NCBI RefSeq assembly: GCF_002159335.1
Contig: NZ_NFHP01000006.1
Span: 124,001-188,000, forward strand
Length of the DNA stretch: 64,000 nucleotides
Direction: 5' to 3'
DNA from: Collinsella sp. An7
Lineage (GTDB): Bacteria > Actinomycetota > Coriobacteriia > Coriobacteriales > Coriobacteriaceae
The position numbers and the translations under genes were made by a program. Positions within the stretch are counted from its first letter, which is position 1, and each line of letters opens with the position of its first letter. Below, piece after piece: positions 9,849-60,810 of this stretch. The notes beneath the pieces are model-generated. The model did not search any database, was not told the origin of the DNA, and saw nothing but the letters and a program-made list of their open reading frames with translations.

Positions 9849-11207
9849 ATGCCTACGCCGCAACCTGTTACCGCAGACGACATCGCGCTCGCCCGCGATG
9901 AGTTCCTCGCCGACCGCGCCAACACCGTCGCCAAAAACGCCGTGACCTCCTCGGGCATCCGCGCCGCTGCGCGCGTGCCTGAGGGCGTGGCCGCCAACCC
10001 GCTCACGTTTGACATCGAGGTCAAGCAGGGCAAGCGCTGCGATCAGCAGCGCTCCGGCCGCTGCTGGATGTTTGCCAGCCTCAACACCATGCGCTACCGC
10101 ATCATCCAGCGCTACAACCTCGAGACCTTTGAGCTCAGCCAGGCTTACCCGCTCTTTTGGGACAAACTCGAGAAGAGCAACTGGTTCCTCGAGAACATTC
10201 TCGACACGCTCGACGAGCCGCTCGACGGTCGGCTCGTTGCCTACCTGCTGACCGACCCCATCGGCGACGGCGGGCAGTGGGACATGTTCAAGAGCCTCGT
10301 CAAAAAGTACGGTGTCTGTCCTAAGGAGGCCATGCCCGAGACCGCCTGCTCGCGCAACACCTCCGAGATGGACTCCTACCTCACGCGCTATCTGCGCGGC
10401 GCCGCCAAGCGTCTGCGCGAGAGCGCCGCGGCCGGCGTCTCGGCCGACGACCTCGCTGCGCTCAAGCGCACCATGGTCGGCGAGGTCTACCGGCTCCTCG
10501 TCACCTGCCTCGGCGAGCCGCCGGCGCGCTTTGACGTGCGCCTGCGCGATCGTGACCATAAGCTCGTGCTTTCGGACAGCTTTACGCCGCAGGAGTTCTT
10601 TGAGCACGTCGTGGACATGAACGTAGACGACTACGTCTCGCTCATCTCGGCCCCTACGGCCGACAAGCCCTTTGGCCACGTCTACACGGTGAGTCGTTTG
10701 GGCAACGTGGTGGAGGACGGCGGCGTGCGCTACCTCAACCTGCCGATTGAGCGGCTCAAACAGGTGGCCATCGCACAGCTCCGCGACAACCTGCCCGTAT
10801 GGTTTGGCTGCGACGTTGCCCAGAGCTACCTGCGCGACGAGGGCATCATGGACACCGCCGCGCTTAACGTGGACGCGCTCTTTGGCTTTGCGGTCGAGGA
10901 CTGCATGGATCGCGCCGAGCGGCTGGACTACGGCGAGTCGCTCATGACCCACGCCATGGTGCTCGAGGGCGTTAACCTCAACGCCGACGGGGAGCCGACG
11001 CTCTGGAAGGTCGAGAACAGCTGGGGCGCCGATCACGGTCGCGACGGGTTTGACACGCTCTCCGACGCCTGGTTTGACGAGTACGTGTACCAGGTCGTGG
11101 TGGACAAGAAGTACCTCACCGACGACGAGCGCGCCACCTACGAGACCGAGGAGCCGCGCGTGCTCGCGCCGTGGGACCCGATGGGCTCGCTTGCCTGCGT
11201 GAGGTAG
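9849..11207 (+). CDS. pepC: aminopeptidase C, bleomycin-hydrolase family
   Basis: Cytosolic cysteine aminopeptidase of peptidase family C1B that trims peptides from the N-terminus. 452 residues, the usual length. The papain-like triad is visible: C72 in QQRSGRCWMFASLN, His in SLMTHAMVLEGV, and Asn in LWKVENSWG. Other family blocks are present (LSQAYPLFWDKLEKSNWFLE and GDGGQWDMF). ATG 9849 follows AAAGGA with good spacing. It is the first chromosomal gene right of the mobile element and stands alone, converging on the JetD-like gene across a 21-bp terminator stem. Confidence 0.95.
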   Translation: MPTPQPVTADDIALARDEFLADRANTVAKNAVTSSGIRAAARVPEGVAANPLTFDIEVKQGKRCDQQRSGRCWMFASLNTMRYRIIQRYNLETFELSQAYPLFWDKLEKSNWFLENILDTLDEPLDGRLVAYLLTDPIGDGGQWDMFKSLVKKYGVCPKEAMPETACSRNTSEMDSYLTRYLRGAAKRLRESAAAGVSADDLAALKRTMVGEVYRLLVTCLGEPPARFDVRLRDRDHKLVLSDSFTPQEFFEHVVDMNVDDYVSLISAPTADKPFGHVYTVSRLGNVVEDGGVRYLNLPIERLKQVAIAQLRDNLPVWFGCDVAQSYLRDEGIMDTAALNVDALFGFAVEDCMDRAERLDYGESLMTHAMVLEGVNLNADGEPTLWKVENSWGADHGRDGFDTLSDAWFDEYVYQVVVDKKYLTDDERATYETEEPRVLAPWDPMGSLACVR

Positions 11208-11450: not shown

Positions 11451-12932
11451 CTACAGGTCGGCGGCGGTCACGATCTCCTGCGGGATGAGCCGCGCCCCGT
11501 CGAGCACCGCCCGCAGGTAGGTCGCCTCCTTCTTTTTGAGGAGGGGTTCGAGCAGCTCAAAGCCCATGATGGGGACGTTGACCTGGTCGGTGCGGCGGTT
11601 CTCGAGCGGATCGGGGAAGCGCCTCATCGCGCGTTTGAGCATGAGTCGGTACGCCGGGGCAAACGGCTCGAGTGTGATGGGCGTCGCCCCGAGGCCGTCG
11701 TCCGCGTCCGCCTCGTCGTCTGATTCCGCCCGTGCCGCCATGCGCCCCGCACGGGCGCGAAGCGCCAGGTCGAGCTTGGCCATGAGCTCGAGCCCTGCGC
11801 GATCGAGGTCGCCCCAATAGTAGACGCGCGCGTCCTCAGCGCCGAGCGTCTCCACCAGGTCGACGAGCTTCTGCGCGTCACCCACCAGGTGCCCGTCGCC
11901 AAACACCACGCCGTGCACACGCTCGCCGAGCAGGCGTTTTTGCCCGGAGAGAAAGATGGCGTCGCGCATATTGGTAAACGGGTCGAGGTTCTCGGAGATC
12001 ACGAGCTTGAGGTGCCGGCGCCGCTTGGGTACGCAGGCGAGCATCTCCGACTTGGCGGCGTGGCGGTAGCGCAGCAAGTCGCCCACGCCCATGAGCCGCA
12101 GGAGCTTGCGCCCCTCCGACTCGATGGCGATAAACTTCTCGTCGCCAAAAATCTGGTAGGAGAGCTCGCGCATGGTGAGCGAGCCGTCGCCGATGGTGGG
12201 CCGGCGATCGAGCGCGTCGGAGAGCGCCTTGAGCTCGCGCTCGTAGGCGAGGTACGCGTCGGGCGCACTCAGCAGGTAGCCGTTGATCCACAGGCGCGGG
12301 TCGAGGTCGATGATCAGCCGGCGTATGGCGTTGAGCTCAGGTGTTTGCTTGCGCACGGTGTCGATGCGGGCGAGCTGGCGTGGCCCCTGCTTGGCAAGCG
12401 AGGTGCCGGGTCGGTTGCCGCGCTCGCCCCGCCGGCTGCCGCGCCGCGACGTGCCGGCCGCCGAGGAGGCGGGAGAGGCGGTGTTGCTGTTGCCGTCTGC
12501 GCCTGATGCGGGCGCGGCTTCGCGCCTAGCGGACCGGGTGGCGGTGTCGCTGGTAGTGGCGTCTTTGGGGGCGCCGGCTGCGTCGCTCGCCGTGCCCGCT
12601 GCGCCGTTACCCCCGGGGTTGCCGCCCACGGGCACCGCCGCGCTGCCCGCGCCGGTGCTCGCCTCGGCCTGCAGCCGGTAGACGCCCTCGCCCGCCCGCA
12701 CGAGGAGGCCCGTCTGCGTGAGCGTCTTGAGCGTGCCCTCGCCGGCGCCGTACTTCTTGAGTACCTCGCGCACCGACGAGGCCGAGAGCGGATTTTCGCG
12801 CAGCTGCAGGCGCACGAGGCCGCTCGCGATGCCGCTCGCCATGGAGCGGTGCTCGGGCGCGAGCGCGGACGCCAGCGACTTGGCGAGCCTGATGGCGGTT
12901 TCTTTTTCTGCTTCGGTCAGCTTTTGCGGCAT
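11451..12932 (-). CDS. JetD-like DUF2220 protein with Toprim domain, orphan
   Basis: 493 residues from ATG 12930-12932 (AAGGAG upstream). Residues about 8-95 are helical with a winged-helix look; residues about 100-185 are Ala/Gly/Thr/Arg-rich linker. The second half matches the DUF2220 family, with a Toprim-like nuclease core: Glu in LKLVISENLDPFTN and the acidic pair in VYYWGDLDRAGLEL. JetD of Wadjet (type I) cuts plasmid DNA after SMC-like JetABC loads, but no jetA, jetB or jetC gene lies on either side: the neighbours are pepC and a histidine phosphatase. So either an orphan nuclease or a housekeeping DUF2220 protein. Family fairly certain; function open. Confidence 0.75.
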   Translation of the reverse strand: MPQKLTEAEKETAIRLAKSLASALAPEHRSMASGIASGLVRLQLRENPLSASSVREVLKKYGAGEGTLKTLTQTGLLVRAGEGVYRLQAEASTGAGSAAVPVGGNPGGNGAAGTASDAAGAPKDATTSDTATRSARREAAPASGADGNSNTASPASSAAGTSRRGSRRGERGNRPGTSLAKQGPRQLARIDTVRKQTPELNAIRRLIIDLDPRLWINGYLLSAPDAYLAYERELKALSDALDRRPTIGDGSLTMRELSYQIFGDEKFIAIESEGRKLLRLMGVGDLLRYRHAAKSEMLACVPKRRRHLKLVISENLDPFTNMRDAIFLSGQKRLLGERVHGVVFGDGHLVGDAQKLVDLVETLGAEDARVYYWGDLDRAGLELMAKLDLALRARAGRMAARAESDDEADADDGLGATPITLEPFAPAYRLMLKRAMRRFPDPLENRRTDQVNVPIMGFELLEPLLKKKEATYLRAVLDGARLIPQEIVTAADL

Positions 12933-29485: not shown

Positions 29486-30076
29486 GTGTCGTGCGCGTTT
29501 ACGCCGGAGGAGCAGGCCTATCTGGCTTCGCTGCCCGCCGTTCAGTCGGTGAGCGAGAGCACTATCACCTACGCGCCTGAGTTTAGAGCGACGTGCATGG
29601 ACCGCTACTACGCGGGCGAGTCCCCGACCGAGATCTTTCGGTCGGAGGGGCTCGATCCGGCGCTGATCGGGGGCAAGCGCATCGAGCGCTGTGTATCGCG
29701 TTGGCGCCACTCGATACCGCCGCGCGACACGCCCACGCCGCCGGCCAAGCGCGACCTGCTGGTGGAGAACCGCATGTTGCGGAGCCAGGTCGCCGCCCTT
29801 GAAGGGCTGGTCGAGCTCGCGCACGCCCGCGAGAACCGCGCGGTGCGCAAGGCGCGTCGGTTTGAGCTTATCGAGGAGCTGCGGGAGCGCGTGGATGACT
29901 TCTCGCTCGCGGCCGCCTGCGGTGTCCTTGGCGTGTCCGAGGGCGGCTACTACCACTGGCGGGCGCAGCGCGCGGCGTGGGCGGACGCGGCGCGGCAGGA
30001 CGGCCCCGGCGGCGCCCACGGCGACCCCGACGCCGGCCCCGACGGCGCCCCTGACGCCTCCGACCCCAGAAAATAG
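29486..30076 (+). CDS. truncated IS3-type transposase HTH protein
   Basis: 196 residues from GTG 29486 (GGAGG upstream). Residues about 20-75 form an HTH (RATCMDRYYAGESPTEIFRS, then IERCVSRWR). A zipper-like helix follows (LLVENRMLRSQVAALEGLVE), and residues about 125-165 (IEELRERVDDFSLAAACGVL, then VSEGGYYHWRAQ) resemble the start of IS3 OrfB. The integrase core is absent; the C-terminus is Asp/Gly/Pro low-complexity. It looks like an OrfA-OrfB fusion remnant. A 146-bp palindromic element begins 12 bp after the stop. It is separated from the adhesin by a hairpin. Confidence 0.65.
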   Translation: MSCAFTPEEQAYLASLPAVQSVSESTITYAPEFRATCMDRYYAGESPTEIFRSEGLDPALIGGKRIERCVSRWRHSIPPRDTPTPPAKRDLLVENRMLRSQVAALEGLVELAHARENRAVRKARRFELIEELRERVDDFSLAAACGVLGVSEGGYYHWRAQRAAWADAARQDGPGGAHGDPDAGPDGAPDASDPRK

Positions 30077-30088
30077 GGGGTCAGAATA

Positions 30089-30234
30089 AAAACTTCGCGC
30101 CAATGTAAGGATGGAATCGCGACTTCTCGAGTAGACAGCCGCTCTCAAAAATCAAAAGCGCAGGTACAGTGCTTGGGTCAAAAGCGGTCTACTCGGCGGA
30201 ACGCCATTTCATCCTTACATTGGCGCGAAGTTTT
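30089..30234. repeat. 146-bp palindromic element with 25-bp arms
   Basis: The first 25 bp (30089-30113) are the exact reverse complement of the last 25 (30210-30234). Inside, CGAGTAGAC (30128-30136) pairs with GTCTACTCG (30187-30195). Flanks extend the complementarity imperfectly (GGGGGT at 30076-30081 against ACCCCCC at 30242). A second element at 45677-45833 has the same layout and a similar core but different arms. Confidence 0.75.
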
Positions 30235-30252
30235 GCTATTAACCCCCCCTGG

Positions 30253-30293
30253 GGCAGTTGGGGACGTGTCCCATCTGACCCATTTTGGCTGCC
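30253..30293. repeat. TTGGGGAC-core hairpin repeat
   Basis: GGCAG (30253-30257) and CTGCC (30289-30293) flank TTGGGGACGTGTCCCA and TGACCCATTTT. The closest relative in the window is the copy at 60663-60701. Confidence 0.55.
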
Positions 30294-45676: not shown

Positions 45677-45833
45677 AAACTCGACCCCTGAAGTGAGCGC
45701 ATCTTTTGGGACCCCTCGGGCAGACCGTTCAAATCGGCGATGAATTACCAGTAAAAGGCCAGTTGAGCGCTTTAGCCTAGTGGAGCGCTACTGAGACATT
45801 CCAAAAGATGCACTCACATCCGGCGTCGAGTTT
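45677..45833. repeat. 157-bp palindromic element, second of its kind
   Basis: Arms 45677-45710 and 45801-45833 are imperfect reverse complements (about 29 of 33 positions), including GCATCTTTTGG against CCAAAAGATGC. The centre (CTCGGGCAGAC, then AGTAAAAGGCCAG, GCGCTTTAG and GAGCGCTACTGAG) lines up with the centre of the 30089-30234 element. It lies in the 451-bp gap after the J-domain gene. Confidence 0.7.
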
Positions 45834-60701: not shown

Positions 60702-60750
60702 ATGCTCTGTGTGCCCTCCGTGCTAAGATTGCCCGTAGCCCTATGGGGCT

Positions 60751-60790
60751 CCTGACGAGGGCAGCCGTACCAGGATCGATAAGACGGCGC
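60751..60790 (+). promoter_or_regulatory. guanidine-III riboswitch (mini, ykkC-III class)
   Basis: The 40 bases read CCTGACGAGGG.. through CCGTACC and GATAAGACGGCGC. They match the class consensus almost base for base: CCxGACGAG, GCCGTACC, the pairing segment, then AAGACGGC for the pseudoknot. It begins 60 bp upstream of the Gdx/SugE start, and the ribosome site AAGGGAGG follows 8 bp later, so guanidinium binding should turn on translation of the exporter. The class is known to control guanidinium exporters, as here. Confidence 0.9.
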
Positions 60791-60810
60791 ATCGACGGAA
60801 GGGAGGCCCC

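Follow-up and report, generated by a model that had tools for sequence, protein, structure and literature searches.

The window analysed here, a 64-kb stretch of the Collinsella sp. An7 genome (G000), holds two long palindromes, and these raise the question of whether each is a selected structure such as an RNA motif or a copy of a small mobile element, the two possibilities named in an earlier note on this DNA. Among the inverted repeats of the window, elements 1 and 2 are the longest two, with arms of 64 nt and 33 nt, respectively. Both palindromes are exact and far above chance, and folding gave z-scores of -10.5 and -5.5, with 0 of 200 shuffles as good. Both also lie where the earlier note had placed them. 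For element 1 the position was right but the extent too short: by its ends, TAGGGGGTCA...TTAACCCCCC, the whole element occupies approximately 30074-30248, limits that were read from the sequence and are backed by end-to-end alignment of the 15 genome copies of this element, which we refer to as family A. In that alignment outer GGGGGTCA ends flank both sides in most copies.

All features are given on the forward (+) strand. The left arm of element 1, AAAAACTTCGCGCCAATGTAAGGATGGAATCG, is the genome-specific arm type A (30088-30119; the left arms of the 15 copies share 92% pairwise identity), and its inverted partner, the right arm, lies at 30206-30234, as placed by inverted-repeat search, copy alignment and arm comparison. 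Core site 1, GAGTAGAC (30129-30136), is conserved among 72 A-type cores from many genomes. Comparison of these cores also delimited site 2, AAAAGCGCAGGTACAG (consensus AAAaccGCAGGTAgA, 30154-30169), and site 3, GGTCTACTCGG, an inverted copy of site 1 (30186-30196). A fixed A/T tract at 30180-30183 corresponds to core columns 63-66, which are 82-99% A/T with an A share of 22-48%, so that A and T swap between copies. Element 2, of family B, has its left arm at 45677-45709 and the inverted partner at 45801-45833, both located by inverted-repeat search, genome copies and arm comparison. Its core comprises site 1, CTCGGGCAGACC (consensus CGAGTAGACC, 45716-45727), taken from the family B copies, a middle motif, AAAAGGCCAGTTGAGCGCTTTAG (45753-45775), part of a core that profile search also detected in about 20 further genomes of this bacterial family, and an inner palindrome, AGCGCTTTAG..GGAGCGCT, followed by ACT (45766-45792).

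This inner palindrome resembles an operator of the form CACTTTA-N6-TAAAGTG, the match spanning 45766-45789. Each genome of the genus has 1-4 such sites outside B elements (for example C11:313254 and C14:220087 in G000), and those at the loci examined lie upstream of genes for the binding proteins of amino-acid and oligopeptide ABC transporters; six of the nine best sites in G000 fall within B elements.

The immediate surroundings bear out the earlier statement that no neighbouring gene accounts for either element. The ORF to the left of element 1 (29486-30076) encodes an IS3-type HTH fragment, with matches to a transposon HTH domain and to the N-terminal portion of an IS3 transposase, and its TAG stop codon is supplied by the first bases of the element. 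Other features of the window include TTGGGGACGnGTnCC-like repeats at 30258-30281 (about 10 bp outside element 1), 21307, 50090 and 60674, and a Guanidine-III riboswitch at 60732-60793, which at 41 bits exceeds the Rfam cut-off.

The earlier note had made its reading depend on further copies, and whole-genome BLAST against the G000 assembly (2.37 Mb, 99.7% complete) recovered 15 full copies of family A and 26 copies of family B. Their flanks are unrelated, and all of them are intergenic, none lying inside a gene as predicted by our own codon-usage analysis. The distance between arm landmarks is constant, at 131-132 nt in all A and 149-151 nt in all B copies measured. Thirteen of the 26 B copies are placed between convergent genes, against 7 of the 38 intergenic regions in the window. 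Among A-type cores 13 of 16 are on the strand of their co-directional neighbours, and no strand preference relative to neighbouring genes was seen for B-cores. G000 has two further arm types, GCGTTGTAGGGCACTTT in a single element whose core is B-like and GTCAACTCGAGCYGGAAAACTGTGTAAGAA in three elements whose core is A-like.

Several individual loci of G000 deserve description. On contig C6 two A elements (10569-10699 and 12268-12398) lie 1.7 kb apart around a 374-aa ORF that gave no Pfam or NCBIfam match. On contig C11, at about 371,434-371,504, an A-like core with a GTCAACTCG-type left arm lacks its right arm and represents a truncated relic, some 250 bp from a B copy. The A copies at C12:333438-333595 and C13:253644-253803 have in common about 180 bp of one flank as well as a boundary of 16-20 bp on the other side, and the orientation of the core is reversed relative to these flanks; the interior of this pair seems to flip between its arms.

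The distribution in relatives was examined with two profiles, one built from the B interior by sequence alone and the other from the A interior. The B-core was recognised in the approximately 20 same-family genomes mentioned above and, weakly, in some genomes outside the family. The A-core profile matched 91 of 150 relatives, among them 66 of the 67 from this family, the highest count being 31 scored matches in one genome; it also matched genomes from some other families, G116 for instance with 14. The family is taken to be Coriobacteriaceae, as every named match is a Collinsella. Both core types are present in G065. The stronger matches of the profiles lie between inverted arms of 15-30 nt whose pairing is perfect or nearly so, giving elements that are usually 120-160 nt in length, and copy number among the relatives ranges from 0 (in G011) to 30 or more. 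Doublets are common, with elements about 150-290 bp apart and arm types that sometimes differ within the pair (G017, G021). Searches of phage, plasmid and viral collections returned no matches to the elements. The two palindromes thus belong to a large superfamily of non-coding intergenic repeats of about 130-180 bp in Collinsella and its relatives. This superfamily is apparently undescribed, no report of such repeats in Coriobacteriia or Collinsella having been found in the open literature searched.

What distinguishes these repeats is the different behaviour of arms and core. The claim that arms of unrelated sequence still pair within each element was strongly borne out across genomes. For 29 hand-picked representatives of arm types, the inner 15 nt pair at 98.6% with their own partner, a figure that is partly due to construction since arms were located through their inverted match, and at 30.8% with the partner of another type. 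Mean identity between the 29 types is 31%, and arm identity within a genome is about 83-92%. Core identity within a genome (0.54 for family B of G000, 0.57 in G065, 0.47 in G082 and 0.46 in G083) is close to that between genomes (0.46), and most copies therefore look old. The cores of G074, with a within-genome identity of 0.84, are a younger set of copies.

Elements 1 and 2 do have the same plan, as had been proposed: outer arms, (C)GAGTAG..., a middle CAG motif and ...CTACT, at fixed spacing. The further proposal of a shared core holds only in part at the level of sequence: the B-interior profile finds no A element and the A-interior profile no B element; direct homology between the two cores was rejected on these searches. 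In G022, one 24-nt arm occurs, with a single difference, on both an A-core and a B-core element. Since the profiles alone do not connect them, the common layout and this shared arm are our grounds for treating A and B together, and they look like one system, the link being indirect.

Several lines of evidence support the small mobile element of the earlier note, beginning with the dispersal of 15 and 26 copies to unrelated positions. None of the eight congeners compared has an element at the site of element 2, and their intergenic region there measures 74-175 bp against about 725 bp here. In G015, copies that are 94% identical have a flank identity of about 27%, with flanks unrelated on at least one side. 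A 1.8-kb stretch bearing an A copy is 97% identical between G000 and G005, congeners otherwise being about 70-80% identical, and this is presumably due to transfer; in G005 the stretch adjoins what we take to be an IS1249-like transposase gene. The dinucleotide TA adjoins the ends of many G015 and A copies, and B copies lack a consistent duplication; overall, no consistent target-site duplication was recognised in the copies aligned. In a BLAST search of the whole An7 genome for a longer or autonomous element with A or B arms, these arms were found only as short pairs, apart from one half-copy of B.

Two other origins were considered and rejected. For insertion into pre-existing palindromes, the complementarity of the outer flanks was no better than for swapped copies, a marginal value in A excepted. 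Replacement of arms in place, at orthologous sites between genera, was represented by two shared neighbours (pflA-like and rubrerythrin-like), which is about the number estimated for chance.

Taken together, we propose, with a probability of roughly two in three, that the elements are copies of a non-autonomous, non-coding, MITE-like mobile DNA element of about 130-180 bp, located in the intergenic DNA of Coriobacteriaceae. They share with MITEs their small size, lack of coding capacity, terminal inverted repeats, multiple copies and dispersed intergenic positions, together with an empty site in relatives in the case of element 2. An autonomous transposon with the same terminal repeats was not found in this genome for the A and B arms, nor was a clear and consistent target duplication, and we therefore use the term MITE-like rather than MITE. 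A second difference is that comparison between genomes shows a conserved middle with exchanged ends, whereas MITEs usually show the reverse. In the proposed mechanism the outer arms, which are inverted repeats, would be bound by a genome-specific mobilising protein and for that reason be alike within a genome and different between genomes. The inner core would provide sites resembling protein-binding sites and A/T tracts at fixed spacing (three GTAGA-type sites in the A-core; GAGTAG, CCAGTTGAGC and the inner palindrome in the B-core), to be recognised by a partner or domain that changes slowly. Mobilised in trans, copies would then insert into intergenic DNA, in many cases between convergent genes. 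In particular, we infer that proteins bind the arms and the core, and that the element owes its movement to a trans-acting recombinase or transposase.

A more far-reaching form of this proposal is that the repeats constitute an undescribed class of mobile or nucleoprotein element with two-layer recognition, in which the core would be bound by a partner conserved across the family and the arms by a fast-diversifying, genome-specific factor that would hold arms alike within a genome and exchange them wholesale from one genome to another. It is suggested by the finding of many unrelated arm types around one core class and of a single arm type shared by two core classes, and we offer it tentatively. 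As far as could be shown, the novelty lies in the combination of a conserved core with genome-specific, interchangeable arms, which is undescribed in the literature searched.

The principal alternative is that the elements act as structured RNA, the arm stem forming in transcripts of flanking genes and serving for 3'-end formation or as a substrate of the RNase III type. The extreme foldability of both elements, the enrichment of B copies between convergent genes and the orientation of A-type cores along their co-directional neighbours would all fit such a role. Selection for pairing predicts that an arm fits the partner within its own copy better than partners taken from other copies. For family B the two values are 0.900 and 0.895, and arm mismatches are distributed as 20 G.T, 20 A.C and 21 transversions; in G082, G083 and G074 the own-partner excess is likewise not significant. 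The count of covarying pairs in the arms, which the earlier note had called for, thus revealed no within-copy compensation in these four sets. An own-partner excess is present in G015 (p<0.001) and G065 (p=0.03), attributable to two-arm subtypes such as GGGGAC/GAAGAC/CGGTTC, and a small one in family A (0.921 vs 0.891). Paired changes are confined to whole two-arm subtypes, clearly in G015, weakly in G065 and little in family A. Summed over seven sets, G.T mismatches exceed A.C mismatches (68 vs 44), which would favour RNA, but a single column in A accounts for a large part of this excess.

The interior gave a similar picture. B-core palindromes pair at 77.1%, against 78.6% in column-shuffled controls, and show no covariation, while interior folding compared with shuffled sequences is about equal for A (mean z -0.4) and slightly better for B (-1.5). 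Rfam scans at gathering cut-offs gave no family match for the elements. Intrinsic terminators have a short GC-rich hairpin, a small loop and a T tract, to which an interior of about 90 nt between the arms is unsuited, and the B-cores have no strand preference. The idea of a selected RNA-like structure was therefore left unsupported by Rfam, interior folding, arm compensation and core covariation alike, and we regard this alternative as improbable. Arms that in family B and in G082, G083 and G074 are conserved as sequence, together with a B-core that does not covary, argue instead for putative DNA sites read by a protein rather than for a selected RNA fold. The A/T tract, which in the 72 A-type cores is conserved as A/T with A and T interchangeable (B shows a similar tendency), fits DNA read by a protein or by its shape, and unpaired RNA could show the same. 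A 10-bp helical phasing of the A/T tracts was not significant.

Protein-read DNA sites would also be expected if the elements were dispersed binding sites of the host, selected copy by copy for chromosome organisation or for insulation between convergent genes, with arms that track a fast-evolving host DNA-binding protein. The site of one A copy with intact arms in G000 holds a decayed relic in G006, and the insertion, being common to both genomes, is older than their split; near-perfect arms in such old copies could mean that copies are individually selected and do not simply spread. Constant length, fixed A/T tracts and the presence of elements in nearly all genomes of the family but in none of the phage, plasmid and viral collections searched are in keeping with this explanation. 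It accords poorly with a copy number that spans 0 to 30 or more, with the empty site of element 2 in all congeners and with the near-identical recent copies in G015, and we consider it unlikely.

The last alternative, that the elements are REPIN-like repeats moved by a RAYT (REP-associated tyrosine transposase) with the core GTAG as its tag, draws on within-genome conserved ends with a variable middle, on the conserved GTAG/CTAC of the core and on the frequent presence of RAYT-like genes in these genomes (a single one, at C12:176446-177270, in G000), but it is largely refuted and very improbable, as none of 20 RAYT-like genes has an element within about 2 kb, most of these genes are accompanied by inverted repeats of a different kind, often of the TTGGGGACG type, with no relation to the arms, and G065, G074, G082, G017 and G021 have many elements and no Y1 match. 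GTAG is located in the core and not in the arms, and by eye no hairpin was seen within any arm listed. An association with RAYT-type TTGGGGAC repeats, which occur alongside 5 of 10 G015 copies, was dropped as they accompany only 1 of 33 tested G000 copies. Most of the RAYT-like genes examined here have flanking repeats of the TTGGGGACGnGTnCC type.

Returning to the MITE-like reading, comparison with other known repeat systems shows partial resemblances. REPINs and REP sequences with RAYTs (PMC3116915, PMC3733652) likewise have ends that are conserved within a genome around a variable middle and that differ between species, are intergenic and enriched between co-directional and convergent genes, and form doublets; they differ in that the arms described here are not themselves hairpins, length is fixed, the core is conserved and the local RAYT genes have other repeats. 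ERIC/RU, YPAL and similar intergenic palindromes of 100-170 bp (PMC2759123, PMC2267715) are of the same size class and are set apart, by their descriptions, by the conserved core and the many unrelated arm types found here across a bacterial family. TIR families with TIRYT transposases (PMC3733652) are also dispersed families with terminal inverted repeats, possibly moved by tyrosine transposases, whereas the inverted repeats around Y1 genes here do not match the arms.

These repeats are present in almost every genome tested of a major gut bacterial family, yet they have no Rfam family, and they reverse the pattern usual for miniature transposons, in which ends are conserved and the middle is free. 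The 29 arm types around common cores form a natural series that could be used to track down the protein recognising the arms, and to study how a mobile element can alter its recognition ends while keeping its core. In the relatives of Collinsella, the elements may influence 3' ends and rearrangements.
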